From positions 1 through 44,714 of IMG/VR virus record IMGVR_UViG_3300010885_050227: 44,714 nt of DNA; one strand, written 5' to 3'. Made by a program: the position numbers and the translations under genes. This DNA comes from a virus. The number at the start of each line of letters is the position of its first letter. The first letter of the stretch is position 1. The notes below the pieces were generated by a model. It saw only the letters and a program-made list of their open reading frames with translations, had not been told where the DNA came from and searched no databases. Below, piece by piece: positions 34 through 38,393 of the stretch.

Positions 34-249
34 ATGACAGACACGAAACAGAACCAGTCGCTTGATCGCGTGACCGACCTGGCGGCCGAGCTCGCAACAG
101 CCGAGCTCGTCTCGACCGGGATCCGCATCCGGCTGAACGCCGAGATCCAGAAGCAGTCCGAGCAGGGCGTGACGCAGTTGGAGATCGCGAAGGCGGCTGG
201 CATCTCTCGGCAGCGCGTCGCGCAGATCCTCGAGAAGGGGCTCGCGTGA
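34..249 (+). CDS. Small helix-turn-helix DNA-binding protein
   Basis: A 71-residue protein. Its last 25 residues (LEIAKAAGISRQRVAQIL and flanks) have the A-x3-G-I-S turn followed by an R-x-R-V recognition helix, the usual look of a helix-turn-helix in small phage regulators and sigma-region-4-like folds. The N-terminal part is a charged helix (LAAELATAELVSTGIRIRL) that could mediate dimerisation. The start at 34 is preferred because GAGG at 25-28 lies 5 nt upstream. An in-frame ATG at 16 with GGAG at 4-7 is also possible and would add six residues. The next gene starts at GTG 246 inside this gene's stop, so the two are probably translationally coupled. A DNA-binding role is inferred from the motif; the target is unknown. 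Confidence 0.8.
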   Translation: MTDTKQNQSLDRVTDLAAELATAELVSTGIRIRLNAEIQKQSEQGVTQLEIAKAAGISRQRVAQILEKGLA

Positions 250-455
250 GCGCCCTGACGCCCGGGTTCAAGCACGTCTTCCGCCTCGCGGACGGGGAGG
301 TGCTCGAGGCTTTCCCGCCGCGCGGGGCGCTCCGGACGATGGACCGTCGTGGCGATCGTCCACCCGAGGTCGTCTGGGAGATCACGACGCCGGCCGGGCT
401 CGTTCGGCGCCTGTGGCCGGAGGAGATAGCGGAGTACGAGATGGTGGAGTTGTGA
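246..455 (+). CDS. Hypothetical protein, 69 aa
   Basis: Starts with GTG overlapping the upstream TGA (GTGA) and ends in TGA overlapping the next GTG. It therefore sits in a tightly coupled chain of small genes. The sequence is a short charged protein with an aromatic-rich middle (VVWEI) and an acidic tail; I recognise no family motif. No signal peptide, membrane segment or zinc ligands are visible. GC-rich third positions support real coding. Function unknown. Confidence 0.65.
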   Translation: MSALTPGFKHVFRLADGEVLEAFPPRGALRTMDRRGDRPPEVVWEITTPAGLVRRLWPEEIAEYEMVEL

Positions 456-1295: not shown

Positions 1296-2723
1296 ATGGC
1301 GCCCGGCAAGACGATCAAGTACACCGGGGCGAACCTCTACCCGAAGCAGCGCGCGGCGATCTATGACCCCGCCCGTTTGGTGACAATCGAGGCCGGAACT
1401 AAATGCGGGAAGACGATCGGCTGTCTTTCTTGGCTCCTCGAGCAGGCTCTTCTCGGGGGTAGCGAGGGGAGAAACTACTGGTGGGTCGCTCCGGTGTTCG
1501 GCCAGGCCGGGATCGGCTACCGGCGCATGAAGATGAAGATCCCGCGAGGTCTCTACAAGGCGAACGAGTCGAAGCTCACGATCACGCTCGCGAACGGTGC
1601 GATCATCTGGTTCAAGTCTGCCGAGCGACCAGACGACCTCTACGGCGAGGATGTGTACGCCGTCGTGATGGACGAGGCCTCGCGCATGAGGGAGGACGCC
1701 TGGGTCGCGGTGCGCTCGACGCTCACGTTCACCCGCGGTCCGGTTCGGATGATCGGGAACGTGAAGGGGAAGAAGAACTTCTTCTACCTACTCGCCCGAG
1801 AGGCCGAGCGCGGCGAGTCCCCCGACATGGCGCACCACCGGATCACCGCGTGGGATGCCGTCGAGGCGGGGGTGCTTGACCGTGCCGAGATCGAGTCCGC
1901 CTACCGCGACCTGAAGCGCCTCGGCCGCGAGGGCACGTTCAACCAGCTGTATCTCGCGGAGGCGTCGGACGATGGCGACAACCCGTTCGGGATCGAAGCG
2001 ATCGACATGTGCGTCGTCGACAAGCTCTCGACGGAGTATCCGAAGGCGGCCGGCGTCGACGTGGCTGGGCGCGGTGCTCAGAATCAGGCGGAGTCGTCGG
2101 AGGACTCGATCCAGGAGCGCGACTTCACCGCGATCGTGATGCTCGACAAGGAGGGGTACACGACGCATCTGTCGCGCTTCCAGATGGGCCCGGCTGACAC
2201 GGCGACGGAGATCGCCCGGGTCGTGAAGGGCACGATGGCGCTCGTCGACTCAACGGGGGCCGGGGACGCGGTGGTCGAGGCGTTGCAGCGGCGCGGAACG
2301 ATGCGCGTCGAGGGGTTCACGTTCACGGAGCGCTCCCGGCAGGACTTGCTCGAGGGGCTCGCGGTCGCGATCGGCGATGGGACGGTGCACTTCCCGGACG
2401 GGTGGATGCGTGACGAGCTCGACTCGTTCGAGTTCCGCTACACCGCTCGCGGCGTGCGATGGGTGGTGCCGAGCGGCTATCACGACGACGGTGTGATGGC
2501 GCTCGCGCTCGCGGTGAGGAAGCTCCCGAAGCGGAAAGGTGCCGGTCGGGCGCCGCTCGGGGTTCCGAAGCCAGCGGGGTCGGCGTGGCAAACTGACGAG
2601 GCGGCGGGCGGCAATCCTCTGCTCGGCGGTGCGCAGACGCCGGACACGACCTCGCCGCCGAAGACGACTGTGCCGATGCCAATCGTGATCGGTGGCGGAG
2701 GTGGTTCTCGGTGGGACATGTGA
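1296..2723 (+). CDS. terL: Terminase large subunit
   Basis: A 475-residue DNA-packaging motor and headful or cos nuclease acting at the portal. The ATPase half has a Walker A variant AGTKCGKT (about residues 33-40), a substrate-sensing region with adenine-proximal YPKQ near residue 17, and Walker B with catalytic glutamate in YAVVMDEAS (about 123-131). The RNase H-like nuclease half shows acidic residues in VDVAGRG (about 248-254), DFTAIV, VDSTGAGD (about 316-323) and HDDGVMALALA near 395. All are typical of TerL. The last 70 residues are a low-complexity Gly/Pro/Thr tail. The start is ATG 1296, without a ribosome binding site. No clear small terminase was identified. Confidence 0.95.
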   Translation: MAPGKTIKYTGANLYPKQRAAIYDPARLVTIEAGTKCGKTIGCLSWLLEQALLGGSEGRNYWWVAPVFGQAGIGYRRMKMKIPRGLYKANESKLTITLANGAIIWFKSAERPDDLYGEDVYAVVMDEASRMREDAWVAVRSTLTFTRGPVRMIGNVKGKKNFFYLLAREAERGESPDMAHHRITAWDAVEAGVLDRAEIESAYRDLKRLGREGTFNQLYLAEASDDGDNPFGIEAIDMCVVDKLSTEYPKAAGVDVAGRGAQNQAESSEDSIQERDFTAIVMLDKEGYTTHLSRFQMGPADTATEIARVVKGTMALVDSTGAGDAVVEALQRRGTMRVEGFTFTERSRQDLLEGLAVAIGDGTVHFPDGWMRDELDSFEFRYTARGVRWVVPSGYHDDGVMALALAVRKLPKRKGAGRAPLGVPKPAGSAWQTDEAAGGNPLLGGAQTPDTTSPPKTTVPMPIVIGGGGGSRWDM

Positions 2724-2766: not shown

Positions 2767-3336
2767 ATGCCTTTGAGGATCGTCTGCTGTTACCGCGATG
2801 AGAGCCACATCGACCCGCGCGCCAAGGAGGCTCTGGTCACTGCGATTAGCGGCCTAGATGTGGATGTGATCCTTCATCCCGTCGGGGACTCTCCGTTCGC
2901 CTACGGGGAATGGCTCGACTACCACTGGTCGATGTGCTCCAGGGGCAGTCAGTCGCTCGCGATCGTCGAGCCGGACATCGTGGTGCGCCCTGACGTGATC
3001 GACGCGTTCCTAAACCGGCCTGATCCCTACGTGTGTTTCCCCTACGCTCTGCTGACCGAGGTCGCGCCCGCGCTCGGCTGCACCCGGTTCAGCAACGAGT
3101 TCATCCGCGAACATCCGACCCTGATCGACGAGGCGGTCGCGATGAACGTGTCATGGCGGCAACTGGACGTGGTGATCCAGCGGAAGCTGCTCGTCGGGAA
3201 GTACGGCATTCAGCCATTGGTGTTGCTCCCGCCGGTCGAGCATCTGAACCCCGCGAAGGCGCTGCTCCCCGACGCCGACCCGACCCCGGTGATGGGCATC
3301 CCGGACATGTTCGGGAACCTCGAGGTGCTCGCGTGA
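2767..3336 (+). CDS. Glycosyltransferase-like protein, 189 aa
   Basis: First gene of the island. Its start at ATG 2767 has a strong GGGAGG 6 nt upstream. A central SLAIVEPDIVVRPDVIDAF stretch followed by PYVCFPYAL resembles the nucleotide-sugar pocket region of compact GT-A-like proteins common in actinophages. There an acidic pair replaces DxD, and a later GCTRFS segment and a C-terminal HLNP are typical. From sequence I see one domain and no membrane segment. Probable role: sugar transfer to a virion or host component. Donor and acceptor are unknown, and catalytic activity is inferred only from this resemblance and from neighbours. It overlaps the next gene by 4 nt. Confidence 0.65.
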   Translation: MPLRIVCCYRDESHIDPRAKEALVTAISGLDVDVILHPVGDSPFAYGEWLDYHWSMCSRGSQSLAIVEPDIVVRPDVIDAFLNRPDPYVCFPYALLTEVAPALGCTRFSNEFIREHPTLIDEAVAMNVSWRQLDVVIQRKLLVGKYGIQPLVLLPPVEHLNPAKALLPDADPTPVMGIPDMFGNLEVLA

Positions 3337-3548
3337 ACACTTGGGGAGACGGTCTTTGCTTGCACCGCATCATGGTGAAGAAGGATGTCTCGGGTGTGCG
3401 CGCGCTGATCGAACAGCGCCTCCACGTCGCGACTACCGTCGAGGACATCGACCCTCACTATGGGACGGCCATCGACTTCCTCGCTCCCCCCGACGTCGAC
3501 CTCGACTTCCTGCGCCCGGACGTACTTCCGCCGAAGGGTGCCGCGTGA
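3333..3548 (+). CDS. Hypothetical protein in sugar-transfer island, 71 aa
   Basis: Starts at GTG 3333 in a GTGA overlap with the previous stop and ends in a GTGA overlap with the next glycosyltransferase. It is a short soluble, acidic protein with a cluster of aspartates in PPDVDLDFLRPDVLPP near the C-terminus. No family is recognised. Tight coupling with glycosyltransferases on both sides suggests a partner or accessory protein, but nothing in the sequence shows it. Confidence 0.6.
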   Translation: MNTWGDGLCLHRIMVKKDVSGVRALIEQRLHVATTVEDIDPHYGTAIDFLAPPDVDLDFLRPDVLPPKGAA

Positions 3549-4204
3549 GCCGCATCGCGATCACGATCCCGACGATCGGGCGCGAGTCCCTCCGAGAGGC
3601 GGTGCAGTCGCTCGTCCCGCAACTCGCCGACGGTGACCGCGTGATGGTCGTGTGCGACGACATGACCCGCTACGACTTCTGCTCCGACACCGTCGCGGAC
3701 GCCCGAGAGGCCGCCGCCGACGGGGTGATGTGGCGCACCTACCCGACGGACAAGCCGCGCGGGGCGTTCGGGCACGCGGGGCGGAATATGGCGCTCGACA
3801 TGTTGCTCGAGTTGGAGGACGCGCCCTCATGGTCGTGGTCGATCGACGACGACGACATCGCGACCCCGTGGGCGCTCGAGAAGATCCGCGCGGCGACCCT
3901 GACCGGGGACTCGCCCTGGTACGTGTTCCGCATGGTCGGCGGCGCCGGGTCGCACTACCCGGGGCTGAAGCTCCCGAATCAGGGGCCCGTGATTCGCGCC
4001 GGGAACGTCGGAACGCCGATGCTCGTGTTCCCTGTCTGCGACGCACGCTGGGGCACCACGTCGGTCGACACGAACCTCGGCTCTCAGCCGGACGGCTACT
4101 TCGGCGACTACCAGATGGCAATCTCGCTCACGGACGAGCTCGGCCAGCCGGGATGGGTCGACTCGACGGTGTGCGAGGTGCGACCGAAGGCGGAGGAGGC
4201 ATGA
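3545..4204 (+). CDS. GT2-type glycosyltransferase
   Basis: A 219-residue GT-A fold protein. It opens with ITIPTIGRESLREAVQSL, the typical first beta strand and helix of family 2 transferases, where the nucleotide sugar docks. VVCDD follows, and then the metal-binding acidic cluster SIDDDDIATPWALEKI (about residues 99-114). The latter half (GNVGTPMLVFP, then YFGDYQ) matches the acceptor side, where an aspartate in DYQ could be the catalytic base. Starts at GTG 3545 coupled to the previous gene. It probably transfers a sugar from a nucleotide donor in the cytoplasm; specificity is unknown. Confidence 0.8.
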   Translation: MSRIAITIPTIGRESLREAVQSLVPQLADGDRVMVVCDDMTRYDFCSDTVADAREAAADGVMWRTYPTDKPRGAFGHAGRNMALDMLLELEDAPSWSWSIDDDDIATPWALEKIRAATLTGDSPWYVFRMVGGAGSHYPGLKLPNQGPVIRAGNVGTPMLVFPVCDARWGTTSVDTNLGSQPDGYFGDYQMAISLTDELGQPGWVDSTVCEVRPKAEEA

Positions 4205-5028
4205 CCCGCGCGATCGTCTTCTCCCGCAACCGCCCGGCGCAACTCGACCTGCTGCTCCGATCGCTCAAGCGGCACGCCGCCGACTGGATCGACGAGATCG
4301 TCGTGCTGTACCACTCGACCACCGCGGACTTCGAAATGGGCTACGCGCTCTGTCGCCTGGGTCACGAGAGCGAGAGCATCTCGTTCGTTGAGGAGTACGA
4401 CTTCGCTGGACAGATGCTCGACATCGTCACCGGGGAGAATCTCGACCTCGTGGTGCCGTTCTGCGACGACGACGTGATGTTCGCACCCGTGCCATCCACC
4501 GACGTCGAGCCGTACGACATCCTCCGCTTCGACGCCGACCTCCTGTGCGTCTCGCTGCGCCTCGGGCGAAACACCACCGAGTGCTACTCCCTGCGGCGCC
4601 CGCAGCAGTTCCCGGGATCCCTGGCGTGGCCGTACGCCGCCGCGACGGGTGACTTTGCCTACCCGGGGTCGCTTGACGGGCACGTCTTCCGAGTCGACGA
4701 CTTCGCGAGCCTCATCGACGGCGGCAACTGGAGCAACCCGAACGAACTCGAGGAACATCTCGCGCATGCCTGCCGCTTGCAGGCGGACAAGTGGCGGATG
4801 GCGTGCTACGACCACTCGATCCTCGTCGGCATCCCGATCAACTCGGTCACGCCGACGCACGGGTCGAACCGCCACGGCGAGCATCACCCGGTCACGACGA
4901 GCGAGCTCAATGAGCGCTTCCTGCAAGGCGCTAGGCTTTCGCTCGACACCGTCGACCCGAAACTGGTCGACGCAGCCCATGTTGAGTTCCCGCTTCGGTG
5001 GGAGGAAGCGAAGGAGGACGGCACTTGA
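4201..5028 (+). CDS. Glycosyltransferase-like protein, 275 aa
   Basis: ATG 4201 overlaps the previous stop. The N-terminus (AIVFSRNRPAQLDLLLRSL) is the start of a GT-A fold. An aspartate-rich metal site appears as VVPFCDDDVMF (about residues 91-101). The C-terminal half carries DHSILVGIPINSV and a conserved-looking HGSNRHGEHH segment, features seen in phage proteins of this type. Length is normal for a single-domain GT-A enzyme. Sugar donor and target are not predictable. The gene lies in an unbroken overlap chain, so stoichiometric co-expression with the neighbouring transferases is likely. Confidence 0.75.
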   Translation: MTRAIVFSRNRPAQLDLLLRSLKRHAADWIDEIVVLYHSTTADFEMGYALCRLGHESESISFVEEYDFAGQMLDIVTGENLDLVVPFCDDDVMFAPVPSTDVEPYDILRFDADLLCVSLRLGRNTTECYSLRRPQQFPGSLAWPYAAATGDFAYPGSLDGHVFRVDDFASLIDGGNWSNPNELEEHLAHACRLQADKWRMACYDHSILVGIPINSVTPTHGSNRHGEHHPVTTSELNERFLQGARLSLDTVDPKLVDAAHVEFPLRWEEAKEDGT

Positions 5029-5804
5029 GCGACACACGGAGAACGGTTTGGGAATGGGCAACCTCGTACGTCGGTGATCCCGGCAGCTGGTCGAAGCGCG
5101 GGTCGCTGATCCACGACTTCCTGATCGAGGCCGGGATGACCGCGCAGAGCAAGGTGCTGAACATCGGCTGCGGGAACCTCTCCGAGGGAGCCCCGATCAT
5201 CCGCACGCTCGAGCCTGACCACTTCGTCGGGGTCGAGCCGAACGGCTGGCTCGTCGAGGCCGCCCTCGACCACGAGCGTGACCTCGCCCACAAGAGCCCG
5301 CGCTTCCTCTGGCGCAGCGACTTCGATGCGTCCGATCTCGGCGAACGCTTCGACTTCATCGTCGGGCACAGCGTCCTCAGCCACATCGCGCACTGGCAGT
5401 TGAACCAGTTCCTCGCGAACACCCGAGCCGTCGTCGACGAGGGCGCCGCGATGCTCGCGTCGATCATCCTCGATCAGTTCAATACCTGGGATGAGCAATG
5501 GGTATACCCGGGGGTGTCGCGTTTCCGCCTGCAGACGGTGATCGCGGCCGGTCGAGAGATCGGCTGGCACGTCGAGCGCGTCGTCGAGTACCAGCACCGC
5601 ATGATCGAGGTGTGCCCGAACGACACCCACGACTGGCTTCGCTTCACCGCGATCCCGTCGTCCGCGGAGTTGAATGATCGGCGTCTCACGGAGGAGTCGT
5701 TGCAACAGGCGGAGCGCGAGATGCGCGCCCGGTACGAGAACGAGCGGCTGCAGCTTCTCGGCGCTGACGATCAGGCGCTCATGGAGAGGACGGGACTCGC
5801 GTGA
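5025..5804 (+). CDS. Class I SAM-dependent methyltransferase
   Basis: A 259-residue protein. TTG 5025 is chosen as the start because AAGGAGG (5011-5017) lies at good spacing and the TTGA overlaps the previous stop. Motif I is VLNIGCGNLSEGA (about residues 46-58). The acidic end of strand beta-2 is FVGVEPN, and motif II/III appears as FDFIVGHSVLSHI with a conserved histidine pair, as in sugar or natural-product methyltransferases. The last 60 residues are a charged helix, possibly a coiled coil. In this setting it probably methylates a sugar or the decorated acceptor, which is inference; the fold assignment is firm. Confidence 0.85.
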   Translation: MSDTRRTVWEWATSYVGDPGSWSKRGSLIHDFLIEAGMTAQSKVLNIGCGNLSEGAPIIRTLEPDHFVGVEPNGWLVEAALDHERDLAHKSPRFLWRSDFDASDLGERFDFIVGHSVLSHIAHWQLNQFLANTRAVVDEGAAMLASIILDQFNTWDEQWVYPGVSRFRLQTVIAAGREIGWHVERVVEYQHRMIEVCPNDTHDWLRFTAIPSSAELNDRRLTEESLQQAEREMRARYENERLQLLGADDQALMERTGLA

Positions 5805-6694
5805 ACCGCCTCGTCGTCTGGGGAGCCCGCGACAGCCTCGACTCGATCCGTCACGTGTGGCGGCACTATCACCAGACCGCCGCGAAGCTCGGAATCCCGA
5901 CCGTCTGGGTCGATGATCGCTCCCCGATCCCGCTCGTACCCGGCGACACCGTGCTCGCAGCCGACGTGACCGGCAAGAACCTCCGCTACTGGCCTGGGGT
6001 GAACTACGTCCTGCACAACTTCTCGGGCACCGACCAGCTGTGCGTCGACCTCGAGGCCACCCCGGAGCGCCTCCTACGCCTGCAAGTCTGGACGCATGAC
6101 GCGGTCGGGGAGGAGTGGGCGCCGTGCCGCCAGTTCGACCTCGACGCGAGGACGCTCTTCCAGCCGTGGGGCTCCGACCTCCTCGCCGAGGAGTTCCTCG
6201 AGCCGGTGTTCAACCCGCAGGCCCGCGATGTCACGTTCGTCGGGGCGATCTGGTCCGACCAGTACCAGGGCGAGGAGCTCGGGAACGAGTGGACGATCCG
6301 CGAGGTGAAGGATGTCACGTCGCGCCGCGGCCTCACGTTCCGCCATCTCACGCACATCGGGGACGAGGAGAACGCCACCGCGGTTCGCTCGGCGCGGCTC
6401 GCGCCGGCGTTCGCCGGGGCGTGGCAGTGCCGCAAGGGCTACCTTCCTTGCCGATCGTTCAAGGCAGCAGCGTACGGCGTTCTCTCGTTCGGGAACATTC
6501 CGGCAATGGAGGGTCTGCTCGGTGCCGCGTCGGTCGCGAAGGGCTCGGTCGAGGAGACGATGGATGAGGCGCTCGGACTGAACCGCACCCGGTATCTGAA
6601 CCTCGTGCGCGAGCAGCAGCGCGTCGTCGCGAACTACACCTACCGTGAGTCGCTCTCCGCGATCGAGCGGGCGTTCAAGGAGATTCAGGCGTGA
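5801..6694 (+). CDS. Probable GT-B glycosyltransferase (CgeB-like)
   Basis: A 297-residue protein starting at GTG 5801 in a GTGA overlap. The middle has a strand-turn typical of GT-B C-terminal domains (DVTFVGAIW). Later comes a donor-site-like segment, CRSFKAAAYGVLSFGNIPAMEG (about residues 221-242), where the R-x-F-E/K-A-x-A-x-G pattern resembles the nucleotide-sugar loop of CgeB-like spore-coat and phage glycosyltransferases. It ends in helices like the family's closing helix (YTYRESLSAIERAF). The assignment rests on these patterns and on context. It could also be an inactive relative. Confidence 0.6.
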   Translation: MNRLVVWGARDSLDSIRHVWRHYHQTAAKLGIPTVWVDDRSPIPLVPGDTVLAADVTGKNLRYWPGVNYVLHNFSGTDQLCVDLEATPERLLRLQVWTHDAVGEEWAPCRQFDLDARTLFQPWGSDLLAEEFLEPVFNPQARDVTFVGAIWSDQYQGEELGNEWTIREVKDVTSRRGLTFRHLTHIGDEENATAVRSARLAPAFAGAWQCRKGYLPCRSFKAAAYGVLSFGNIPAMEGLLGAASVAKGSVEETMDEALGLNRTRYLNLVREQQRVVANYTYRESLSAIERAFKEIQA

Positions 6695-7383
6695 AGACTG
6701 CGCTCGTCGCCGTCGTGACCGGCCAGGCCTACCACGACTACGCCGACAAGCTGTTCATCAGCGCTCAGGGACGGTTCAAGCCGACCGAGCGCGTCGTGAC
6801 GATGAAGGTGCCCGGACGTGAAGGTCCGTGGCCCGCCGCGACCATGTACCGCCATCACGTGATGCGCGACCTGATCAAAGGGATGCCCGACATCGACTAC
6901 TGGTTCCTTGTCGACGCCGACATGGTGATCACTGGCCCCGTCGGGCCGGAGATCCTCCCGACTGGGAAAGGCGACTATGCGCTGACCGCGACGCTGCATC
7001 CGGGGTACGTTGGGAAGCCGGAGCACGAGTTGCCGTACGAGCGACGCCTCGAGGCCGCGTCGAAGGTGCGAGAAGGCGAGGGGGCGATCTACTACTGCGG
7101 CGGGTTCTTCGGCGGCACCGCCTACGCGATGCGCCGCCTGTGCACGCTCACCGCCGACATCATCGACTTCGACGTGGATCGCGGGCTCACCCCGGCGTGG
7201 CATGACGAGAGCGCGCTCAACGCCGTGCTTGCCGCCGATCCGCCGAGCGTCACTCTCGACCCGCGGTACTGCTGCCCCGCGAACGCCGGGTGGTACAAGG
7301 CGACCGTGTGGCCGGAGGACTACTCGCTCGACGCTCGCATCACCGCGATCGACAAGGACGAGGCGACGAGGGCGGCGCGATGA
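6691..7383 (+). CDS. GT6-family (ABO blood-group-like) glycosyltransferase
   Basis: A 230-residue protein with the ordered motifs of family 6 retaining galactosyl/N-acetylgalactosaminyl transferases. WFLVDADMVI (about residues 71-80) contains the metal-binding DxD. A G-x-EIL turn follows, then ELPYERR, the IYYCGGFFGGT strand (about 130-140) and AWHDESALN (about 168-176), which in ABO enzymes binds the acceptor and contains the catalytic glutamate. Most bacterial members replace DxD by NxN, whereas this one keeps DxD. It lacks the membrane anchor of animal enzymes, as expected in phage. Probably adds alpha-Gal or GalNAc to an unknown acceptor. GTG start coupled to the upstream gene. Confidence 0.85.
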   Translation: MKTALVAVVTGQAYHDYADKLFISAQGRFKPTERVVTMKVPGREGPWPAATMYRHHVMRDLIKGMPDIDYWFLVDADMVITGPVGPEILPTGKGDYALTATLHPGYVGKPEHELPYERRLEAASKVREGEGAIYYCGGFFGGTAYAMRRLCTLTADIIDFDVDRGLTPAWHDESALNAVLAADPPSVTLDPRYCCPANAGWYKATVWPEDYSLDARITAIDKDEATRAAR

Positions 7384-7430
7384 TTGCGAAGTTTTTTCCT
7401 ACAAAAACCTTGCACGGAAAGAACGCATGA
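7380..7430 (+). CDS. Possible 16-residue minigene filling an operon gap
   Basis: ATG 7380 overlaps the GT6 stop (ATGA) and its own stop TGA 7428-7430 overlaps the ATG of the following methyltransferase (ATGA). It therefore bridges the only AT-rich gap of the island. The peptide is MIAKFFPTKTLHGKNA. The DNA contains a run of six T and a run of five A, unlike its neighbours, which could also make it slippery or a relic of a gene end. It may act by keeping ribosomes coupled. Whether the peptide itself matters is unknown. Confidence 0.35.
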   Translation: MIAKFFPTKTLHGKNA

Positions 7431-7990
7431 CCTCCGGCTCTGACTTGATCGCCAAGGCTGAGATCCCCGGCTACGGCACCGACGAGGTCGAGTTCATCGA
7501 GGAGACGCTCCTCGCTTGCCGACCGAAGTTCATCGGGGAGTGGGGAACGAACCTGGGGGCGAGCGCGCGCATCTTCCACGAGCTCTGCGTCCACCACGAG
7601 ATCCCCGCAGTCATCAACACCGTCGACCTGCCAGAAGAGCTCGAGTCGCTCGACCGCGATCACTCGGGCATCCAGACGGGCGACCTGCTCGAGGGTGTCC
7701 CTGTGTGGCGCCATCGAGGAGACGGGGTGACGGTCGCGCTCGAGATGTGGGTGCGGGCCGGGCGCCCGCCGGCGCTCTTCTTCCTCGACGGCGACCACGG
7801 CTTCGAGAACGTCTACCGCGAGCTCGTCGCGATCGCAACGGTCGCCCCGAGAGCGTGGATGTTGCTCCATGACACTCAGGGCGCCCCGGGCGCGGCGTCG
7901 CTGACGTTCGTGGGGCGGTTTCCGGGGCGCTACGACCGTGTGCACCTTCAGTCGCAGGCGGGGATGATCAGGATGGTTCCATGCCTGTGA
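7427..7990 (+). CDS. SAM-dependent methyltransferase (Methyltransf_24/TylF type)
   Basis: A 187-residue protein with GEWGTNLGASARIFHEL as the SAM-binding glycine loop (about residues 36-52). The acidic strand end is NTVDLPEEL, and FFLDGDHGFENVYREL (about 118-133) is the hallmark D-G-D-H/S motif of small O-methyltransferases and their cephalosporin-hydroxylase relatives. There a metal is bound and sugar hydroxyls are methylated. The next conserved site, LLHDTQG, agrees. GGAAAG (7416-7421) is the likely ribosome binding site. Context among glycosyltransferases suggests O-methylation of a transferred sugar (inference). It overlaps the next gene by 10 nt. Confidence 0.8.
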   Translation: MTSGSDLIAKAEIPGYGTDEVEFIEETLLACRPKFIGEWGTNLGASARIFHELCVHHEIPAVINTVDLPEELESLDRDHSGIQTGDLLEGVPVWRHRGDGVTVALEMWVRAGRPPALFFLDGDHGFENVYRELVAIATVAPRAWMLLHDTQGAPGAASLTFVGRFPGRYDRVHLQSQAGMIRMVPCL

Positions 7991-8694
7991 TCGACCTCTT
8001 TGTGATCGGGTTCAACCGCCCCGACCTCCTTCGTGAGCAGCACCGCTTGCTCTCCAAGTACATGCGGGACGAGTGGACGCTCGCGGTCGTCGACAACTCG
8101 ACCGGCACGTGGCCGGTCGTGATGGCCGACGCCGCCCGAGGGCTCGGGGTGCGCTACATGCGCTCACCTTCACCGAAGGGCGAGCATCACGAGGCGCTCA
8201 ACTTCGCCGCCCGCTGCGCGAACGAGGAGAAGAGCCGCTTCTGGGGCGTCCTCGACCACGACGTGTTCCCGTCGGCATCCTGCGATCTCGTCGAGAAGAT
8301 CAAGATCGCCGGGTTCCTCGGGCTCGGGCAGACCTACTCGCCGCGCGTCGGCGACCCGCTCCGCTACGTGTGGCCCGGATGGTGCTTCTTCTCACGCACA
8401 TGGTTGAAGGGCCGCATCCCGAACTTCGACGGGATCCGTGGCAAGTTCAAGTTCGACGACGGCGACACCGGCTCGATGCTGCACACCCTTTTCACGCCGC
8501 GCGACTGGGAGAGTCTTCCCGCGGTCGACCATGGTTACGGGACGATCCGCCCCGACGACGGGCATGGGCTTCAGAGCTTCGGTTACGAGCGCATGGACTC
8601 CTTTGTTCATTTAACAAACTCGTCGGGTTGGAAGGCGGTTCCAAATCCGCAGGAGCGCGAGCTCCTACTCCGCGCGATGGTCGCCGCTCTGTGA
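7981..8694 (+). CDS. GT2-type glycosyltransferase, 237 aa
   Basis: Starts at ATG 7981, overlapping the methyltransferase. The N-terminal strand and helix (DLFVIGFNRPDLLREQHRLL) and the VVDNSTG element are standard for family 2. The acidic metal site is probably GVLDHDVFP (about residues 90-98), where D-H-D replaces DxD. GWCFFSRTWL and the KFDDGDTGSML segment mark the acceptor side. Length is normal for a single GT-A domain. Donor and acceptor are unknown. It belongs to a cluster of clearly diverged transferases, suggesting successive steps of one glycan rather than recent duplicates. Confidence 0.7.
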   Translation: MPVIDLFVIGFNRPDLLREQHRLLSKYMRDEWTLAVVDNSTGTWPVVMADAARGLGVRYMRSPSPKGEHHEALNFAARCANEEKSRFWGVLDHDVFPSASCDLVEKIKIAGFLGLGQTYSPRVGDPLRYVWPGWCFFSRTWLKGRIPNFDGIRGKFKFDDGDTGSMLHTLFTPRDWESLPAVDHGYGTIRPDDGHGLQSFGYERMDSFVHLTNSSGWKAVPNPQERELLLRAMVAAL

Positions 8695-9656
8695 CCCTGA
8701 CCATCTTCACGGCCACGTACAACCGCCTGGAGACCCTCGAGCGCACCCTCCGCAGCTTCCGTAATCTCCGCACCCCGCACGAGGTCTGCATCGTCGACAA
8801 CGGCACCGACGACCCCGCCTGCATCCGCTTCCTCGACCAACTCGAGAAGAAGGTGAAGAAGGTCTACCGGCTCCCGCGCTGCATCCACATGGACGAGGTG
8901 CAGGCGAACTACGACATCGCCTTGCGCGACCAGTACGAGACCGGGGACGCGGAATGGTTCGCCGTGAACGACTGCGACGTCTGCTTCGAGGGGTCGCACC
9001 CAAAGACACTCGACGCGTACATCCGCCTCGCGAAGGAGACGGGGCGCTCCGTCGGGCCGCACCTTCGCGTCGACGGGGCGATCCCGGTCGGCTACCCGCT
9101 GCGCTCCCGGGTGCTCGCCTGTGAGACGTGGATGCTGTACCGCTCCGACATGGAGTGGCTCGACGACATCCCGTTCTCAAGCGTCCAGATCGACACGACG
9201 TTCCACCTGTTCACCCCGCGCCGATCGTTCGACCGCCTCCACATGGACCCCTACCGCGTCGGGCCACCGTACGACGCGATGCACCTCGACTGGTACATCG
9301 ACGTGACGCAGCCAGCGAGGGAGGATCGTCTTCTGATCCCGAACGAGCGACCGATGGGTTCGTGGGGGAAGAAATGGATCAGCGCCTACTGGTCCGACTT
9401 TCAGGTCAACCCCGAGTTCGCTTTTGAGCGACTGATGGCCGAGCCTACAGACCCCCACCACGATCTGTGCAACGTGAGCTTCACCCGGGCGTGGGCGTAC
9501 CAGTATGGTCACGGCGTGCAGGCCAACCGCGAGGCCTCCGAGGAGCATCTGGCGGCGGCGATCCCCTACCCGAACGAGCGCTACTGGCTGCGTGCGGGAG
9601 ATTGGAGCAGGATGATCTACAACAACAACTTCTCGGCTCTCGGGTGGGCGGCGTGA
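8691..9656 (+). CDS. GT2-type glycosyltransferase, 321 aa
   Basis: GTG 8691 overlaps the previous stop. The start (TIFTATYNRLETLERTLRSF) is a textbook GT2 N-terminus. VCIVDNGTDD carries the nucleotide-contacting acidic residues, and WFAVNDCDVCFEGSHP (about residues 88-103) contains the DxD-like N-D-C-D metal site. A long C-terminal portion, rich in aromatic residues (WYIDVTQ, WGKKWISAYWSDF), exceeds a minimal GT-A domain by about 80 residues and may bind the acceptor. The assignment to a GT-A transferase is secure; specificity is not predictable. Confidence 0.8.
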   Translation: MTLTIFTATYNRLETLERTLRSFRNLRTPHEVCIVDNGTDDPACIRFLDQLEKKVKKVYRLPRCIHMDEVQANYDIALRDQYETGDAEWFAVNDCDVCFEGSHPKTLDAYIRLAKETGRSVGPHLRVDGAIPVGYPLRSRVLACETWMLYRSDMEWLDDIPFSSVQIDTTFHLFTPRRSFDRLHMDPYRVGPPYDAMHLDWYIDVTQPAREDRLLIPNERPMGSWGKKWISAYWSDFQVNPEFAFERLMAEPTDPHHDLCNVSFTRAWAYQYGHGVQANREASEEHLAAAIPYPNERYWLRAGDWSRMIYNNNFSALGWAA

Positions 9657-9847
9657 GTACCCTGATGGAACAACTCGACAAGGAGCGCGAAGGGCGCATC
9701 CATGCGCTGCGCCTGCTCGCGGTGCTCGTCGAGCGCGCCGGCGGAGAGGTGCGCATCACCCGCGAAGAGCTCGGCCATGACCGCGAGATTTCACAGAGCG
9801 AGATCGGGATCACCGGGGTGCTCGTGCTCAAGGCGGAGAAGAAGTGA
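9653..9847 (+). CDS. Hypothetical protein, 64 aa
   Basis: Starts at GTG 9653 (GTGA overlap) and ends overlapping the GTG of the next transferase. It is a charged helical N-terminus (MEQLDKEREGRIHALRLLAV) followed by a small beta-like part (GEVRITREEL, then GVLVLKAEKK). This resembles short phage proteins of unknown role that occur in many actinophage genomes. It is not a transferase. A regulatory or chaperone role would be guesswork. Confidence 0.6.
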   Translation: MSTLMEQLDKEREGRIHALRLLAVLVERAGGEVRITREELGHDREISQSEIGITGVLVLKAEKK

Positions 9848-10554
9848 CCCCCGCTGGCGTCACGGTCTGCATCACGACCCACAAGGAGCCGTACGAGATC
9901 CTGAGTCGCGCCGTCGCTTCGGTGCATGCGCAGACAGTCCAGCCGCTCGAGATCCTCGTCATCGACGACGGCGGGCACATGACGAAGGAGGACGAGCAGA
10001 GCCTCGACACCGAAGGCGTGAAGGTGATCCGCATCACAAACCGAGGCCTCGCCGCCGCCCGAAACACCGCACTCATGCTCGCCAAAGGCCGCGCGTTCCT
10101 CCCTCTCGACGCGGATGACTGGCTCGACCCGACCTACATCGAAAAGACGCTCCCGCTGCTCACCGGGGAGGTCGGCGCCGTCCTCACAGGACTGCAAGAG
10201 CACGGACCGGTCCGTAACGGCACCTACCTGCCCGGGTACGACATGCACTTCAACCTCGTCACCGTAGAGCACCTCTGGACGACGAACCGCTTCTACTACT
10301 GCTCCCTCTACGACACCGAGCTCCTGCGAGAGGTCGGTGGGTGGAACCCACTCATGGCGGGGCCGTGGAATCAGGGCGGCGGTTACGAGGACTGGGATCT
10401 CTGGATCGACTTCCTGAAGCGCGGCGTGAAGCTCGACGCCGTGCTCGAGCCGCTTCTCAACTACTCAACCGAGTCGACGACCTCGATGGTGCACCGCGCG
10501 GCGCAGAATCGAGATGCGCTCCTGTCTGAGATGAAGCGTCATCACCGCGGTTGA
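9844..10554 (+). CDS. GT2-type glycosyltransferase (canonical GT-A)
   Basis: The clearest family 2 member of the island, 236 residues. VCITTHKEPYEILSRAVASV starts the Rossmann-like domain, and LEILVIDDGG holds the nucleotide-binding aspartates. ITNRGLAAARNTAL is the conserved donor loop, and LPLDADDWLDPTYIEK (about residues 86-101) contains the D-x-D-D metal site. GGYEDWDLWIDFLKRG near residue 180 is the catalytic-base ED-x-D motif. GTG 9844 is coupled to the previous gene. It ends the island, and a non-coding gap with a hairpin and a promoter-like sequence follows. Confidence 0.9.
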   Translation: MTPAGVTVCITTHKEPYEILSRAVASVHAQTVQPLEILVIDDGGHMTKEDEQSLDTEGVKVIRITNRGLAAARNTALMLAKGRAFLPLDADDWLDPTYIEKTLPLLTGEVGAVLTGLQEHGPVRNGTYLPGYDMHFNLVTVEHLWTTNRFYYCSLYDTELLREVGGWNPLMAGPWNQGGGYEDWDLWIDFLKRGVKLDAVLEPLLNYSTESTTSMVHRAAQNRDALLSEMKRHHRG

Positions 10555-10689: not shown

Positions 10690-12201
10690 ATGACTGGCCT
10701 TTTCAGCGAGGGCGACCTTCGCAACCCGAGCGCGAACGTGCGCCGCATGGTCGGAGACTTCGGCCCGTCCGTCGTGAACCTCGGAAAGGCCGCGTCGCCA
10801 CAGAGGCGCAACCCCCTCAGCGGGAGCGCGCTCGGCACCGAGCTCGGCCGCTCCGGCCTGCGCCACTGGGGCGGGTTCGTCTTCGAGGAGTGGCTAAACC
10901 AGCTTCAGCAGGGCCAACTTGCCGCCCAGGTGTACCGCGACATGATGGACTCCGACCCGATCGTCGGGTCGGTCATCTACGCGATCGAGATGCTGATGCG
11001 TCGCGTCACGTGGTGGGTCGAGCCGGGCGAGGTGAAGACCGCCAACGGGTCGCGTCTCGAGGCCGAGCAGGGCGCGCAGTGGTTCGAGTCCGTACGAACC
11101 GACATGCGCTACTCGTGGGCCGACACGGTCAGCGAGATTATCTCGTTCCTCGGCTACGGGTGGGGCTACAACGAGATCGTCTACAAGCAGCGCAACGGCG
11201 AGAACCCGTTCGACAAGAACGCGAACAGCGCCTACGACGACGGGACGATCGGGATCGCGAAGCTGCCGCTGCGGTCGCAGGACTCCGTCTGGAAGTGGGT
11301 GTTCGACGAGGTCGGTGAGATCGAGGGGATGATCCAGAACCCGCCGCCCGACTACACGCTCCGCTTCATTCCGGCCGAGAAGGCGCTCCACTTCCGCACC
11401 ACGATCTTCAAGAACAACCCGCTCGGTCGGTCGATCCTTCGGTCCGCATACTCGGCCTGGTACTTCGCGAAGAACATGCGCGCCATCGAAGGGATCGGTG
11501 TTGAGCGCGACCTCGCCGGACTGCCAGTGCTTCAGCCGCCGGAGGAAACGAACATCTGGGACACCTCCGATCCAGACATGGCTGGCATCGCCGCGCAGGC
11601 GAAAGCGGTCGTCTCCTCGATCCGTCGCGACGAGCAGGAGGGTGTCGTCCTCCCGTTCGGTTGGACTCTGAGCCTTCTGACAACTGGCGGATCCCGCCAG
11701 TTCGACACGGGGAAAATCATCACGCGGTACGAGACGCGTATCGCGACGAGCGTGCTCGCCGACCTCGTGATGATGGGACAGGACAAGGTCGGCTCCTACG
11801 CGCTCGCCGTCACGAAGAAGGATCTGTTCTCGGCCTCGCTCGGCGCGTACCTCGACATCATCTCGAACCAGATCAACACCGAGCTCATCCCGAAGCTGTG
11901 GCGGCTGAATGGCTTCAAGGGGCCACGGCCAAAGCTGTGCCACGGACAGGTCGAGACGATCGACCTCGACACGCTCGGGAGCTACATCATGCGCCTCGGC
12001 CAGTCCGGCGCCCCGATCGACTGGGAGACGGTGCTCCCGTGGGCGAATGACCAGGCCGGGATGCCGCAGCCACGCGATGGCCACGACTTCACGCCTCGCA
12101 ACGTCGCACAGACGGTGAGCGATAAGGGTCCCGCCGACCGCCTCGTCGCGAAGGCGCACGACCTCCATCGCTGGCGCGACCATGAATGGGAGGGATCGTG
12201 A
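10690..12201 (+). CDS. Portal protein
   Basis: A 503-residue protein forming the dodecameric ring at the capsid vertex through which DNA passes and to which TerL and the head-tail connector bind. Evidence: position after terL and before the protease/scaffold/capsid block; typical length; an N-terminal MMDSDPIVGSVIYAIEMLMRRV segment; a wing region with KALHFRTTIFKNNPLGRSILRSAY (the F-x-N-P-x-G-x-S pattern of DUF935/gp29-like portals); and a long helical C-terminus. The start ATG 10690 lies 7 nt after a -10-like GATACT, with no ribosome binding site. The assignment is strong from pattern and synteny. Confidence 0.9.
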   Translation: MTGLFSEGDLRNPSANVRRMVGDFGPSVVNLGKAASPQRRNPLSGSALGTELGRSGLRHWGGFVFEEWLNQLQQGQLAAQVYRDMMDSDPIVGSVIYAIEMLMRRVTWWVEPGEVKTANGSRLEAEQGAQWFESVRTDMRYSWADTVSEIISFLGYGWGYNEIVYKQRNGENPFDKNANSAYDDGTIGIAKLPLRSQDSVWKWVFDEVGEIEGMIQNPPPDYTLRFIPAEKALHFRTTIFKNNPLGRSILRSAYSAWYFAKNMRAIEGIGVERDLAGLPVLQPPEETNIWDTSDPDMAGIAAQAKAVVSSIRRDEQEGVVLPFGWTLSLLTTGGSRQFDTGKIITRYETRIATSVLADLVMMGQDKVGSYALAVTKKDLFSASLGAYLDIISNQINTELIPKLWRLNGFKGPRPKLCHGQVETIDLDTLGSYIMRLGQSGAPIDWETVLPWANDQAGMPQPRDGHDFTPRNVAQTVSDKGPADRLVAKAHDLHRWRDHEWEGS

Positions 12202-13769
12202 AGTGGCCGTACTCGACGCTCGAGGCTGGAACGACGATCCCAGACTTCCAGCATCCCGGGCCGGTGGCCGTACTCACCCCTGACGACGTTCTCGCGCTCG
12301 GTCAGAGCATCGCAGAGATCGAGCCGGCGTTCCCCGCGAACCTCGAGAGCTCGCCACTCGAGCGTCTCGACGAGATGAGTTACGGGTTGATGAAGGATCA
12401 GGCGGACATCGCGCCGCTCCCGCATGACAGCCGCGCCGAGCTCGTGCGCTTCTGGGCGGAGCATCCCGACATGCGCCAGGAGTGCACCGCGAACTACGGG
12501 CACGACCCGGTCGAGCGCGAGGCTGACTACTGGCGCTTCGGGATCGCCGAGCCGGAGCACGCCGATGTGCTCGATGCGATCAAAGCGAACGGCGGACTGT
12601 TCACCCTCGACCTCGTGAAGCGGTGGGAGGCGCAGGAGATCGCCGAGGCGTCGGTCGAGAAGGCCGCCATCATCGCGGCGGGGATCGCGGTGCGCGCCGC
12701 CGACACCGGCCGCGTCCTGATGATCCAGCGTGCCGCCAATCCCACCGATCCCGCCTCTGGCACGTGGGAGTTCCCGGGCGGGCTCCTCGAGGCCGACGAG
12801 CATCCCCTCGACGCCGCGCGGCGCGAGTTCCGGGAGGAGATGGGCATCCGCCTCCCGAAGGGCAGGCACGCCGGCCAGTGGCGCTCCGCCGTCTATCAGG
12901 GATTCGTGCACGAGGTGAAGCGCGAGAAGACCGTGAAGTTGAACACCCCGAGCGACTCGCGGCGCGTGAAGAACCCGGACGACCCGGATGGCGACAACGC
13001 CGAGGTCGCCGCATGGTGGCACCCCGAGCAGCTGCGCCGCATGAGCGCGCTTCGGCCTGAGCTCCGTCAGAGCAAGGCGTGGACGCAGGTTGAGAAGGCG
13101 GGCGCCCCGGGCCTCGCGGGGCGCATCCCGCCCGCCGGCGACGAGGGCACTGATGAGAACTACCCGGATGAGATGACGCTCGACAAGATGGAGGCCGCCG
13201 CCGCGGCGGGAACCTCTGGCGGATCGGGACCCTCGGCGTCGAGCGTTCACGTGAACAAGCCGCTGAAGAACGTGTCGCAGGGCTACATGCAGGGGCCGAA
13301 GCCGCGGAAGCGCGGCGGGAAGCCGGTGCTCGTCGGCGAGTTCCTGCCAGTCACGAAGGCCGGGAAGATGAAGCAGTTGGTGTACGGCGTAGTGCTCGAG
13401 CCGAACAGCTTCGACAGTCAGGACGACTTCATGCTGCCCCACCACGTCGAGGAGACCGCGCACGGCTACCTGAAGAAGGCGATCCGTGGGCAGTCGTCAG
13501 TCGCAAAGCTCCAGCATCGCGGGGTCGGCTTCCGGAAGGATCGTCCGTCGATCGTCCCGGTCGAGTCGTTCATCGCGCCGTGTGATTTCACGCCAGAAGG
13601 CGGCACCGAGATGATCAAGAAGGGCTCGTGGGTGATGTGCATGCACGTCGAGGACTCCGCGCTCTGGCAGGACTTCCTCGACGGCAAGTACCAGGCGTTC
13701 AGCGTCGGTGGCACGGGTGTGCGACAGTCCTTGCACTCCCCGATCGACATCTCCGCATACGCGGACTGA
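12198..13769 (+). CDS. Nudix domain fused to XkdF-like prohead protease
   Basis: A 523-residue multidomain protein. After an N-terminal helical part (about residues 1-150), a Nudix fold contains a perfect Nudix box: GGLLEADE, then ARREFREEMGI (about 194-217). This family hydrolyses nucleoside diphosphates linked to another moiety. A low-complexity linker leads to VHVNKPLKNVSQGYMQ (about 350-365), almost a copy of the major capsid protein arm. The C-terminal domain (about 380-523; MKQLVYGVVLEPNSFDSQ, then GSWVMCMHVED, then AFSVGGTG) matches the XkdF putative phage serine protease family. GTG 12198 (GTGA overlap, GGGAGG upstream) is preferred over ATG 12186. Head maturation is likely; the Nudix role is unknown. 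Confidence 0.85.
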   Translation: MKWPYSTLEAGTTIPDFQHPGPVAVLTPDDVLALGQSIAEIEPAFPANLESSPLERLDEMSYGLMKDQADIAPLPHDSRAELVRFWAEHPDMRQECTANYGHDPVEREADYWRFGIAEPEHADVLDAIKANGGLFTLDLVKRWEAQEIAEASVEKAAIIAAGIAVRAADTGRVLMIQRAANPTDPASGTWEFPGGLLEADEHPLDAARREFREEMGIRLPKGRHAGQWRSAVYQGFVHEVKREKTVKLNTPSDSRRVKNPDDPDGDNAEVAAWWHPEQLRRMSALRPELRQSKAWTQVEKAGAPGLAGRIPPAGDEGTDENYPDEMTLDKMEAAAAAGTSGGSGPSASSVHVNKPLKNVSQGYMQGPKPRKRGGKPVLVGEFLPVTKAGKMKQLVYGVVLEPNSFDSQDDFMLPHHVEETAHGYLKKAIRGQSSVAKLQHRGVGFRKDRPSIVPVESFIAPCDFTPEGGTEMIKKGSWVMCMHVEDSALWQDFLDGKYQAFSVGGTGVRQSLHSPIDISAYAD

Positions 13770-15687: not shown

Positions 15688-16680
15688 GTGCCGCAGCCGC
15701 AGTCATCTCAGGTTCATGTCAATGCGCCGCTGACCAACATCAGCCAGGCGTATATGCAGACAACGACCGACTACATCGCCGACAAGGTGTTCCCGGTCGT
15801 GCCCGTTCAGAAGCAGTCCGATCGCTACTTCGTCTACACGAAGGGCGACTGGTTCCGCGACGAGGCACAGCTTCGGGCCCCGGGCACGGAGTCGGCGGGT
15901 GGTGGGTACAACATCGACAACACCCCGTCGTACTACGCTCCGGTCTACGCCTTCCACAAGGACGTCGACCCGCAGATCCGGGCGAACTCGGACATCCCGC
16001 TGAACGCAGACCGCGACGCCACGCTCTTTGTGACGCAGCGGATGCTGCTCAAGCGCGAGATCCTGTTCACGACGGTCGCGATGACCACGTCGGTCTGGAC
16101 TGGTTCCACCACGGGCGGAGACATCACCCCGTCCCCGCAGTGGAACCTCGCCAACTCGACGCCGCTCGAGGACATCGAGGTGCAGATCTGGTCGATCAAG
16201 CAGAACACGGCGAAGTTCCCGAACAAGTTCGTGCTCGGGGCACGCGTCTGGGAGGTTCTCAAGAACCACGACGAGATCGTGCAGCGCATCAAGTACACCC
16301 AGCGCGGTGTCGTCACGACCGACCTGCTCGCCTCGCTCATCGCCCCTCCGGGCGTCGAGAACTTCGAGGTGCTCGTCGCCGCGGCGATCCAGAACACAGC
16401 CGCAGAGGGAGCCGCGGACGCGTTCTCGTTCATCTCCCCGACGAAGGGTGCACTTCTGCTCTACGCGGAGCCGGAGCCGGGCATCATGGTGCCCTCCGCC
16501 GGCTACATCTTCACCTGGGTCGGTCTGCTCGGCGCCGGGGCATTCGGCTCGCGGATCTCGCAGATCCCGACTCCGCTGCTCGGCATCGGCTCCGTCCGGG
16601 TCGAGGGTGAGCTCGCGTTCAGCACAAAGATCGTCGGTGCCGACCTGGGCGTCTGGTTCCAGAACGCCGTGAGCGCGTAA
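15688..16680 (+). CDS. Major capsid protein
   Basis: 330 residues, starting at GTG 15688 with AAGGAGGGG (15673-15681) upstream. The N-terminal arm (VHVNAPLTNISQAYM at about 8-22, then YIADKVFPVVPVQKQSDRY) is characteristic of a large group of HK97-fold capsid proteins. A long E-loop region follows, and then the P/A domains (NKFVLGARVWEVLKNHDEI, then IFTWVGLLGAGAFG). It forms the icosahedral shell. The arm motif recurs inside the upstream Nudix-protease, which suggests shared binding or an assembly tag. Directly followed by a short acidic protein gene. Confidence 0.92.
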   Translation: MPQPQSSQVHVNAPLTNISQAYMQTTTDYIADKVFPVVPVQKQSDRYFVYTKGDWFRDEAQLRAPGTESAGGGYNIDNTPSYYAPVYAFHKDVDPQIRANSDIPLNADRDATLFVTQRMLLKREILFTTVAMTTSVWTGSTTGGDITPSPQWNLANSTPLEDIEVQIWSIKQNTAKFPNKFVLGARVWEVLKNHDEIVQRIKYTQRGVVTTDLLASLIAPPGVENFEVLVAAAIQNTAAEGAADAFSFISPTKGALLLYAEPEPGIMVPSAGYIFTWVGLLGAGAFGSRISQIPTPLLGIGSVRVEGELAFSTKIVGADLGVWFQNAVSA

Positions 16681-16682
16681 CG

Positions 16683-17162
16683 ATGACGGTCGAGTTCGGA
16701 TTCAAGGCGATCAAGCCGATCAAGGCCGAGCATCCGCTCGGCTCGGGCATCGTCGTCTCGTACGAGCCCGGTGACGAGGTTCCCGCTTCCGAGTGGGGAC
16801 GCGCCGCCGGCAACCTCGTCGAATCCGGAAAGATCATGCGGTATGCCCGGAACGTGGACACGGTGGGAGAAGATCCCGCCGTGTCCACCCCGGCTCCCGT
16901 GGTCGACCCGGACACCGATGAGGACGAGGACGGCGAGCCGGTCGCTGACGAGAACTCCCCGTTTCCGCGCAACGAAGGGGGCGGCTGGTACAGGCTCTCC
17001 GACGGAGAGCGGATCCGCGGCAAGGTGAAGGCATTCCACTCGCAGGCGGTGCTCGATCAGGATGCCCCCGCTGGGAGCACCGACGAAGAGCAGGACGGCG
17101 AGGAGCAGTCGCAGGAGCCCTCCGAGAGCACCGACGCTGACGCGTCGGAGGCGCAGGAGTAG
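16683..17162 (+). CDS. Hypothetical head-associated protein, 159 aa
   Basis: Starts two bases after the capsid stop. The N-terminal half is a small beta domain (TVEFGFKAIKPIKAEHPLG, then EPGDEVPASEWGRAAGNLVESG). The second half is acidic and disordered (VVDPDTDEDEDGEPVADE), and GWYRLSDGERIRGKVKA interrupts it before a Glu/Ser/Asp-rich tail. Similar acidic proteins downstream of capsid genes are common in actinophages, but their role is not established. Capsid or connector association is inferred from position. Confidence 0.65.
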   Translation: MTVEFGFKAIKPIKAEHPLGSGIVVSYEPGDEVPASEWGRAAGNLVESGKIMRYARNVDTVGEDPAVSTPAPVVDPDTDEDEDGEPVADENSPFPRNEGGGWYRLSDGERIRGKVKAFHSQAVLDQDAPAGSTDEEQDGEEQSQEPSESTDADASEAQE

Positions 17163-17165
17163 ACG

Positions 17166-17465
17166 ATGGCGATTACGGCGGCCACGGTCACGATCGACGA
17201 CGCGAGAGCGTACGTGGTCGTGGCCGCCCTCAACGCGAACGCGAAGGCCTACGCGTACCAGTCCCCGACCTCGTTCCGGAGCGTCCTGGTCACGAACCTG
17301 TCGAACAAGACGGTGTGGCTCGGCGACTCCGCCGTCTCGAGCGCCGCGACCGGCTACAGCCTCCCGGCTGGCGGTTCCGCCACCTTCACGCTCGCACCGT
17401 ACGTCGCGCTGTACGGGAAGTCGTCGCAGTTCAGCGCGACGCTCACCTACGCCGCGACCTCGTAG
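17166..17465 (+). CDS. Small beta-rich structural protein, 99 aa
   Basis: Ala/Ser/Thr-rich beta protein with alternating strands (RSVLVTNLSNKTVWLGD, then YSLPAGGSATFTLAP, then FSATLTYAATS). This looks like a beta-sandwich, such as a minor head decoration or head-fibre unit. It is located among the head-completion genes and encoded with strong GC-rich third positions. No family assignment is secure. Confidence 0.6.
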   Translation: MAITAATVTIDDARAYVVVAALNANAKAYAYQSPTSFRSVLVTNLSNKTVWLGDSAVSSAATGYSLPAGGSATFTLAPYVALYGKSSQFSATLTYAATS

Positions 17466-19965: not shown

Positions 19966-20376
19966 TTGGCAACTGGTTTCGCCGGGAAAGGCGGATCTCT
20001 ATACGTTCCGGGTACGCCAAACGTGCCCGTGGCGAGCATCACCAACTGGTCGCTCAGCATCAGCGCCGACAACTACGAGTCGACGGTTCTCGGAGACAAC
20101 TGGAAGCAGTACATTCCGGGGCTTCGCGGCTGGTCAGGCAAGGCGACCGGCTTCTACAACATCGTGAACGACCCGACGGGGCAGCAGGCGCTCTACAACG
20201 CGCTGCTCAACGGGAACTCGATCGCAATCCAGATGCAGACGGGCGCCGTTGCGGGCTCGGGCATGTGGGAAGGCCTGACGAACATCACGGCCGTCGATGT
20301 ATCTGACCCGGTCAACAACATCGTCACGATCGACTTCACGTTCGTTGGCACCGGCTCCCTCCAGCACTCGCCGTAA
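19966..20376 (+). CDS. Major tail (tube) protein
   Basis: 136 residues from TTG 19966, chosen because GGGAGG (19952-19957) is well spaced. GTG 19957 is in frame but too close to it. The fold pattern is that of TP901-like tube subunits: an N-terminal GGSLYVPGTPNVPVASI strand, SLSISADNYESTVLGD, WKQYIPGLRGWSGKATGFYN, and a closing VDVSDPVNNIVTIDFTFVGTG. Many copies stack into the tail tube. The position before the chaperone pair and tape measure is diagnostic of siphovirus tail operons. Confidence 0.88.
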   Translation: MATGFAGKGGSLYVPGTPNVPVASITNWSLSISADNYESTVLGDNWKQYIPGLRGWSGKATGFYNIVNDPTGQQALYNALLNGNSIAIQMQTGAVAGSGMWEGLTNITAVDVSDPVNNIVTIDFTFVGTGSLQHSP

Positions 20377-38285: not shown

Positions 38286-38393
38286 ATGAGGCGCCGATGG
38301 GTTATCGCGACCGGACTGGCCGGCGCCCTGCTCCTCGGGGCGCTGGCCGTCCAGCTCGCGAACATCATGGAGCTCATGGAGATGGAGCGGTGA
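38286..38393 (+). CDS. Small single-pass membrane protein, 35 aa
   Basis: ATG 38286 to TGA 38391-38393, which overlaps the GTG of the sigma factor gene. A basic start (MRRRW) precedes a hydrophobic helix (IATGLAGALLLGALAVQL) and a short acidic end (MELMEMER). It could be a small membrane or spanin-like partner of the transglycosylase upstream. No family known. Confidence 0.5.
   Translation: MRRRWVIATGLAGALLLGALAVQLANIMELMEMER

Follow-up and report, generated by a model that had tools for sequence, protein, structure and literature searches.

Genes that glycosylate the virion are already known from a few phages, in smaller sets than the one reported here. In the Corndog group of mycobacteriophages, an O-methyltransferase gene and glycosyltransferase (GT) genes lie between the portal and protease genes, and peptides of the capsid were fewer than expected (PMC4351075); glycans on the capsid and tail tube of this group are attributed to Freeman et al. 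2023 in PMC11600133 and PMC12619734. Among viruses of eukaryotes, the chlorovirus PBCV-1 encodes its own GTs and a GT-linked methyltransferase (PMC5408694). Here, we describe a twelve-gene island, g01-g12, between the large terminase gene (terL) and the portal gene of IMG/VR record IMGVR_UViG_3300010885_050227, an uncultivated virus with the gene order of a tailed-phage head and tail, which was analysed over its full 44,714 nt (the window). We suggest, with a probability of about 0.7, that the island is a pathway embedded in the head operon that glycosylates one or more of the phage's own virion proteins.

Results

The island (positions 2767-10554) consists of twelve open reading frames (ORFs) on the same strand that fill the space between terL and portal (Table 1). 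Ten of these ORFs encode proteins of 187-321 amino acids, namely eight GTs and two S-adenosylmethionine (SAM) methyltransferases, and the other two are small. The initial annotation had placed twelve genes between terL and portal, which we confirm, and had described their overlaps as unbroken, which they are not. Eight or nine of the eleven junctions are 4-nt overlaps; g07 and g08 are separated by a 43-nt gap (g08 starts at ATG 7427), g08 and g09 overlap by 10 nt, and the g10/g11 junction is ambiguous, with an overlap of 4 nt if g11 starts at GTG 9653 and a gap of 8 nt if it starts at ATG 9665. A mini-ORF of 16 amino acids (7380-7430) spans the g07-g08 gap with a 4-nt overlap at each end, reflecting either translational coupling or chance. 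Because both PF00535 matches in the window are inside the island and seven independent relatives have homologous GTs directly upstream of portal, the clustering of GTs goes beyond chance. GC content at third codon positions is 0.79-0.92 in the island, as in the flanking structural genes, and homologs are present throughout the lineage; a recent acquisition from bacteria was therefore rejected.

Six of the GTs (g03, g06, g07, g09, g10 and g12) were assigned from sequence or profile matches and two (g01 and g04) from predicted structures. The GT6 assignment of g07 is based on a profile score of 88.6 bits at a curated cut-off of 25, a match of the family profile to BoGT6a (3e-43), two invariant D residues in the DxD motif (middle residue A or C) and a conserved W-[HN]-DES motif, with DES in 9/9 aligned rows. 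The g03 family profile matches solved GT2 enzymes (2e-4 to 3e-4) and, by hhalign, the g12 profile (3e-6). For g06, Glyco_trans_1_2 is matched in six of seven family members (best E=1.7e-4), with the window copy below the curated cut-off; its PDB matches (influenza polymerase) were rejected as chance. By contrast, g01 and g04 lack an informative sequence match, and hhalign detected no significant similarity of either to the island's GT2 families; they are assigned to the GT-A fold because their predicted structures match solved GT-A enzymes, strongly for g04 and moderately for g01. The AlphaFold model of g04 (pLDDT 82, pTM 0.86) matches GnT-I (Foldseek E=5e-7) as well as numerous further structures with a GT-A fold, and g04 probably represents a new GT family. 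The best PDB fold for the g01 model (pLDDT 75, pTM 0.76) is 2p72, the capsid-glycosylating GT of PBCV-1 (E=4e-4, TMq 0.45-0.50); this match is moderate and GT-A folds are common, so that it does not prove a shared function. A match of g01 to YlaC (0.009) was below the cut-off and was rejected.

The GT2, GT-B-like and GT6 families named in the initial annotation are supported by profile matches (below the cut-off for the GT-B-like g06 of the window), although its estimate of about seven GTs or relatives was one short. Its two SAM methyltransferases were also recovered, with g05 above and g08 just below the curated cut-off. When profiles and structures were used to ask whether most genes lie outside GT folds, as it had proposed, most did not. 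Isolated phages almost entirely lack the families of g04, g06, g09 and g10, which may represent new families of enzymes.

Relatives were gathered by scanning viral contigs for portal, the major capsid protein (MCP) and g06. Eight contigs (L061, L062, L063, L064, L065, L066, L067 and L068) have homologous GTs upstream of portal; because L061 and L062 are identical over ~7.1 kb, we count these two as one and arrive at the seven independent relatives. Between the window and the relatives, GT identities are ~31-60%. The head genes are shared with L061, L062, L063, L064, L066 and L068 (portal identity 61-69% in the best-matching segment), while the portal of L067 is more divergent. A core of g01, g03, g04, g06, g07, g09, g10 and g12 is complete in the window, in L061-L064 and in L067, whereas no homolog of g02 was found in the relatives. 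In L065, the head module is unrelated (terminase PHROG 38 and portal PHROG 776, as opposed to PHROGs 2 and 113), and the same slot contains homologs of g04, g06, g07, g08, g09 and g12 together with a gene for GDP-mannose 4,6-dehydratase (Gmd; 4e-103). Gmd is also encoded in the islands of L066 (1.6e-133) and L068 (1e-129), each of which additionally has a GDP-fucose-synthase-like epimerase, so named solely from its family (Pfam, Epimerase) and the order of the genes, and a further nucleoside diphosphate (NDP)-sugar dehydratase.

The terminase-portal interval of L085 (MCP 61%) contains homologs of g01 and g03, further GT2 genes, methyltransferases and a UDP-glucose/GDP-mannose dehydrogenase. 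In L012, the protease gene and a scaffold-like gene flank a homolog of g03 and a methyltransferase similar to g08. In the more distant L040 and gut phage L091, which lack the island, terL adjoins portal (terL of L091 was recognised by eye), and in Arthrobacter phage Waltz five small non-GT genes separate the two. No close DNA relative was found among phage records, a single-sequence g07 scan of viral contigs found nothing, and portal and MCP profiles, run in two scans against 84,980 species genomes, identified neither a host nor a prophage. Judged by portal, the closest isolate with an annotation is an Arthrobacter phage, at an identity of only ~40%; the virus is thus not established as an actinophage.

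The island genes are under purifying selection, with ratios of nonsynonymous to synonymous substitution (dN/dS) of 0.07-0.46 in the pairs L061/L062, L063/L064 and L066/L068, in which synonymous sites are often near saturation. They also diverge faster than terL and portal: between L063 and L064, the GTs are 47-76% identical at the protein level compared to 86% for both terL and portal. No difference separates L061 from L062 between terL and the end of g07, after which their identity is ~79%, marking a sharp recombination breakpoint near position 11,484 of L061.

Table 1. Coordinates of the island genes, their flanking genes and two candidate acceptors in the window
Feature	Position	Strand	Basis
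terL, large terminase (left flank)	1296..2723	+	Pfam Terminase_6C 2e-5; PHROG terminase E=4e-33
g01, GT-A-fold glycosyltransferase	2767..3336	+	Invariant EPDI motif; AlphaFold2 model and PDB fold match; no usable Pfam match
g02, small ORF, function unassigned	3333..3548	+	
g03, GT2-like glycosyltransferase	3545..4204	+	Invariant DDDD; profile matches
g04, GT-A-fold glycosyltransferase	4201..5028	+	DDD/DDC motif; AlphaFold2 and Foldseek
g05, SAM methyltransferase	5025..5804	+	Methyltransf_12 E=4e-8, above curated cut-off
g06, GT-B-like glycosyltransferase	5801..6694	+	Glyco_trans_1_2 profile
g07, GT6 glycosyltransferase, ABO/BoGT6a family	6691..7383	+	Pfam GT6 4e-25
g08, SAM methyltransferase (Methyltransf_24 / RMNT_CmcI-like)	7427..7990	+	Pfam Methyltransf_24 E=5e-5, just below cut-off
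g09, GT2 glycosyltransferase	7981..8694	+	Pfam GT2 2e-5, above cut-off; LDHD motif
g10, GT2 glycosyltransferase, long C-terminal extension	8691..9656	+	Pfam GT2 2.5e-7, above cut-off
g11, small conserved ORF, function unassigned	9653..9847	+	Homologs within L066 and L068 islands
g12, GT2 glycosyltransferase, chondroitin-synthase-like	9844..10554	+	Pfam GT2 8e-23, above cut-off; profile to K4 chondroitin synthase 4e-33
Portal (right flank)	10690..12201	+	Pfam Portal_Mu E=4e-28
MCP, candidate acceptor	15688..16680	+	PHROG 1005 E=6e-77
Major tail protein, candidate acceptor	19966..20376	+	PHROG 1407 E=4e-19

Several observations concern other genes of the window and its relatives. The products of 16683-17162 and 17166-17465 end in Ser/Thr-rich stretches, on which we build no case for an acceptor. 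The protease ORF (12186-13769) combines a NUDIX domain with a Peptidase_S78_2 domain. A stretch of this ORF at residues ~349-369 (SSVHVNKPLKNVSQGYMQ) is similar to the start of the MCP, with the same match to the MCPs of relatives. An N6/N4 DNA methylase is encoded at 38896-39939; near the contig end, 44082-44615 encodes a C-5 cytosine methylase that is just 177 amino acids long. The product of 38390-38899 is similar to Sigma-70 region 2 (7e-12) and may be a sigma factor with which the phage transcribes its late genes. Small proteins that look similar by eye are encoded in the window (246-455), L061 (7966-8169), L063 (8348-8560) and L064 (7634-7858); they have an acidic/aromatic start, a TLDK-type middle and an R-LW-[ED]-[ED]-I end, and the window copy is upstream of terL while the other three are inside the island. 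Two probable inteins were noted: the portal of L068 (17612-20047) is an in-frame ORF of 811 amino acids split by a LAGLIDADG_3 match, and the NDP-sugar dehydratase in the L066 island (7884-9752) is broken in frame by a LAGLIDADG_3-containing insert. Finally, L015, a 7.2-kb contig from another metagenome record, encodes an MCP identical to that of the window and stems from a near-identical virus.

Discussion

Co-expression of the island genes, as well as the acceptor protein, the identity of the sugars, the order of the steps and the benefit, we infer as follows. Soluble GTs in the host cytoplasm would draw on nucleotide sugars of the host, which in some relatives may be made or supplemented by phage-encoded dehydratases. 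On a structural protein, of which the major capsid, decoration and tail-tube proteins are the likeliest, the GTs would attach a first sugar and lengthen it into a glycan of several residues, and the two methyltransferases would O-methylate sugars of this glycan. The decorated virion might then be shielded from, or bind to, something outside the cell. Our analysis lends support to the idea in the initial annotation that the genes may build one multi-step, methylated glycan. Of the two targets that it had considered, virion proteins are favoured because the genes are in the head operon, the proteins are soluble and the Corndog group provides a precedent. Host wall sugars are disfavoured, as the searches revealed neither a membrane segment nor an initiating phosphoglycosyltransferase, a Wzx flippase or GtrA.

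Several points weigh against virion glycosylation. A Ser/Thr-rich C-terminal tail, sought in the MCP as an acceptor signature, was not found. Profiles of g01-g12 gave no GT match to Firecracker gp33-36, the sole island match in this seven-protein search being a weak one of g08 to the Firecracker O-methyltransferase (E=5.5e-5). No Gmd-family gene was found in the window, and the sugar donors would therefore come from the host. Homologs of g01, g03 and g10 are missing from L066, which is truncated upstream, and from L068. Moreover, terL is distant from the island in L068, leaving portal as the constant neighbour of the island.

In the first alternative, the GTs act on the surface of the infected cell and change sugars of its wall or capsule, giving rise to superinfection exclusion or serotype conversion as Gtr prophage modules do. 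GT6 genes are also present in cyanophage P-SSM2 and its kin, in gene clusters of the lipopolysaccharide type. The island proteins of the window have no hydrophobic segment of the membrane type (maximum 19-residue hydropathy 1.41), and the only clear hydrophobic segments in the islands of relatives are in ORFs of 40 (L066) and 210 (L067) amino acids, neither of which is a GT. GtrA, an initiating phosphoglycosyltransferase and a Wzx flippase were each found in 0/10 records, and an integrase is encoded neither in the window nor in most relatives (two of them have one each); because many records may be fragments, these absences are indicative only. Phage GTs that act in this way do exist (Markine-Goriaynoff et al. 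2004, as cited in PMC12619734); given these absences and the location of the genes within the head operon, we consider such a role unlikely here.

Alternatively, the glycan could be added to a receptor-binding or tail-tip protein instead of the capsid and tune adsorption. The fast divergence and recombination of the islands are as expected for an externally exposed specificity, and a tail protein (27098-29839) has a weak match to a carbohydrate-binding module. However, the island is linked to the head genes terL and portal and not to tail-tip genes, and the acceptors reported in the Corndog group are capsid and tail tube, making this target quite improbable. Glycosylation of modified bases in the phage genome, as in T4 or in the varied systems described by Pyle et al. 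2024 (cited in PMC12619734 for DNA-modifying phage GTs), is very unlikely even though the window also encodes DNA methylases, since the GTs match families acting on glycans or proteins (GT6, chondroitin-synthase GT2 and GnT-I-like folds) and are in the head operon, and a gene of the thymidylate-synthase family (hydroxymethylase type) was found in 0/14 records, many possibly incomplete, in a search that did not extend to other routes of base modification.

Virion glycosylation is, thus, the best explanation, based on the absence of membrane or lipid-linked machinery and of a thymidylate-synthase-family gene in the records searched, the position in the head operon and the Corndog precedent. If so, some phages of ordinary size spend ~1/8 to 1/6 of a genome of 45-60 kb on a complex methylated glycan that decorates their own particles, and have converged on this with giant algal viruses. 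Divergence and recombination are faster in the sugar genes than in the adjoining terminase and portal genes, so that the glycans of the virion would present a quickly evolving exterior to some selective agent in the environment. More tentatively, we speculate that the system could be a bacterial-virus counterpart of the autonomous glycosylation of chloroviruses. An uncultivated lineage would then use a mobile slot upstream of portal, reshuffled at a rapid pace, to keep all steps of a pathway for lineage-specific methylated capsid glycans, with at least six GTs, methylation and, in part of the lineage, its own GDP-fucose-type donor synthesis, and possibly with an ABO-like GT6 step.

Compared with known systems, the island is a much enlarged variant, judging from its size, the slot upstream of portal, the nucleotide-sugar genes in relatives, the different head modules and the GT families that are rare in isolates; no description of such a large set was found in the open-access literature searched, which is limited evidence. 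In P-SSM2-type cyanophages and huge phages, all with much larger genomes, the GT6 proteins are homologous to g07 at ~24-31% identity. LR756501, a 735-kb uncultured phage, has a homolog of g04 (32% identity over 98% of g04), which stands alone, with none of the other island families within 8 kb. PBCV-1 resembles the phages described here in its virus-encoded GTs and GT-linked methyltransferase, in the Gmd and GDP-fucose-synthase-like enzyme present in relatives of the window and in the moderate fold match to g01. However, it is an unrelated virus with an unrelated capsid; in the phage, the genes are clustered and Gmd is not in the window. A similar overall design is seen in Corndog and Firecracker (cluster O), in which a methyltransferase and several GTs are also encoded by overlapping genes inside the head operon and the O-methyltransferase belongs to Methyltransf_24, the Pfam family of g08. 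Their set comprises four genes in the portal-protease slot, as opposed to twelve between terL and portal in the window.

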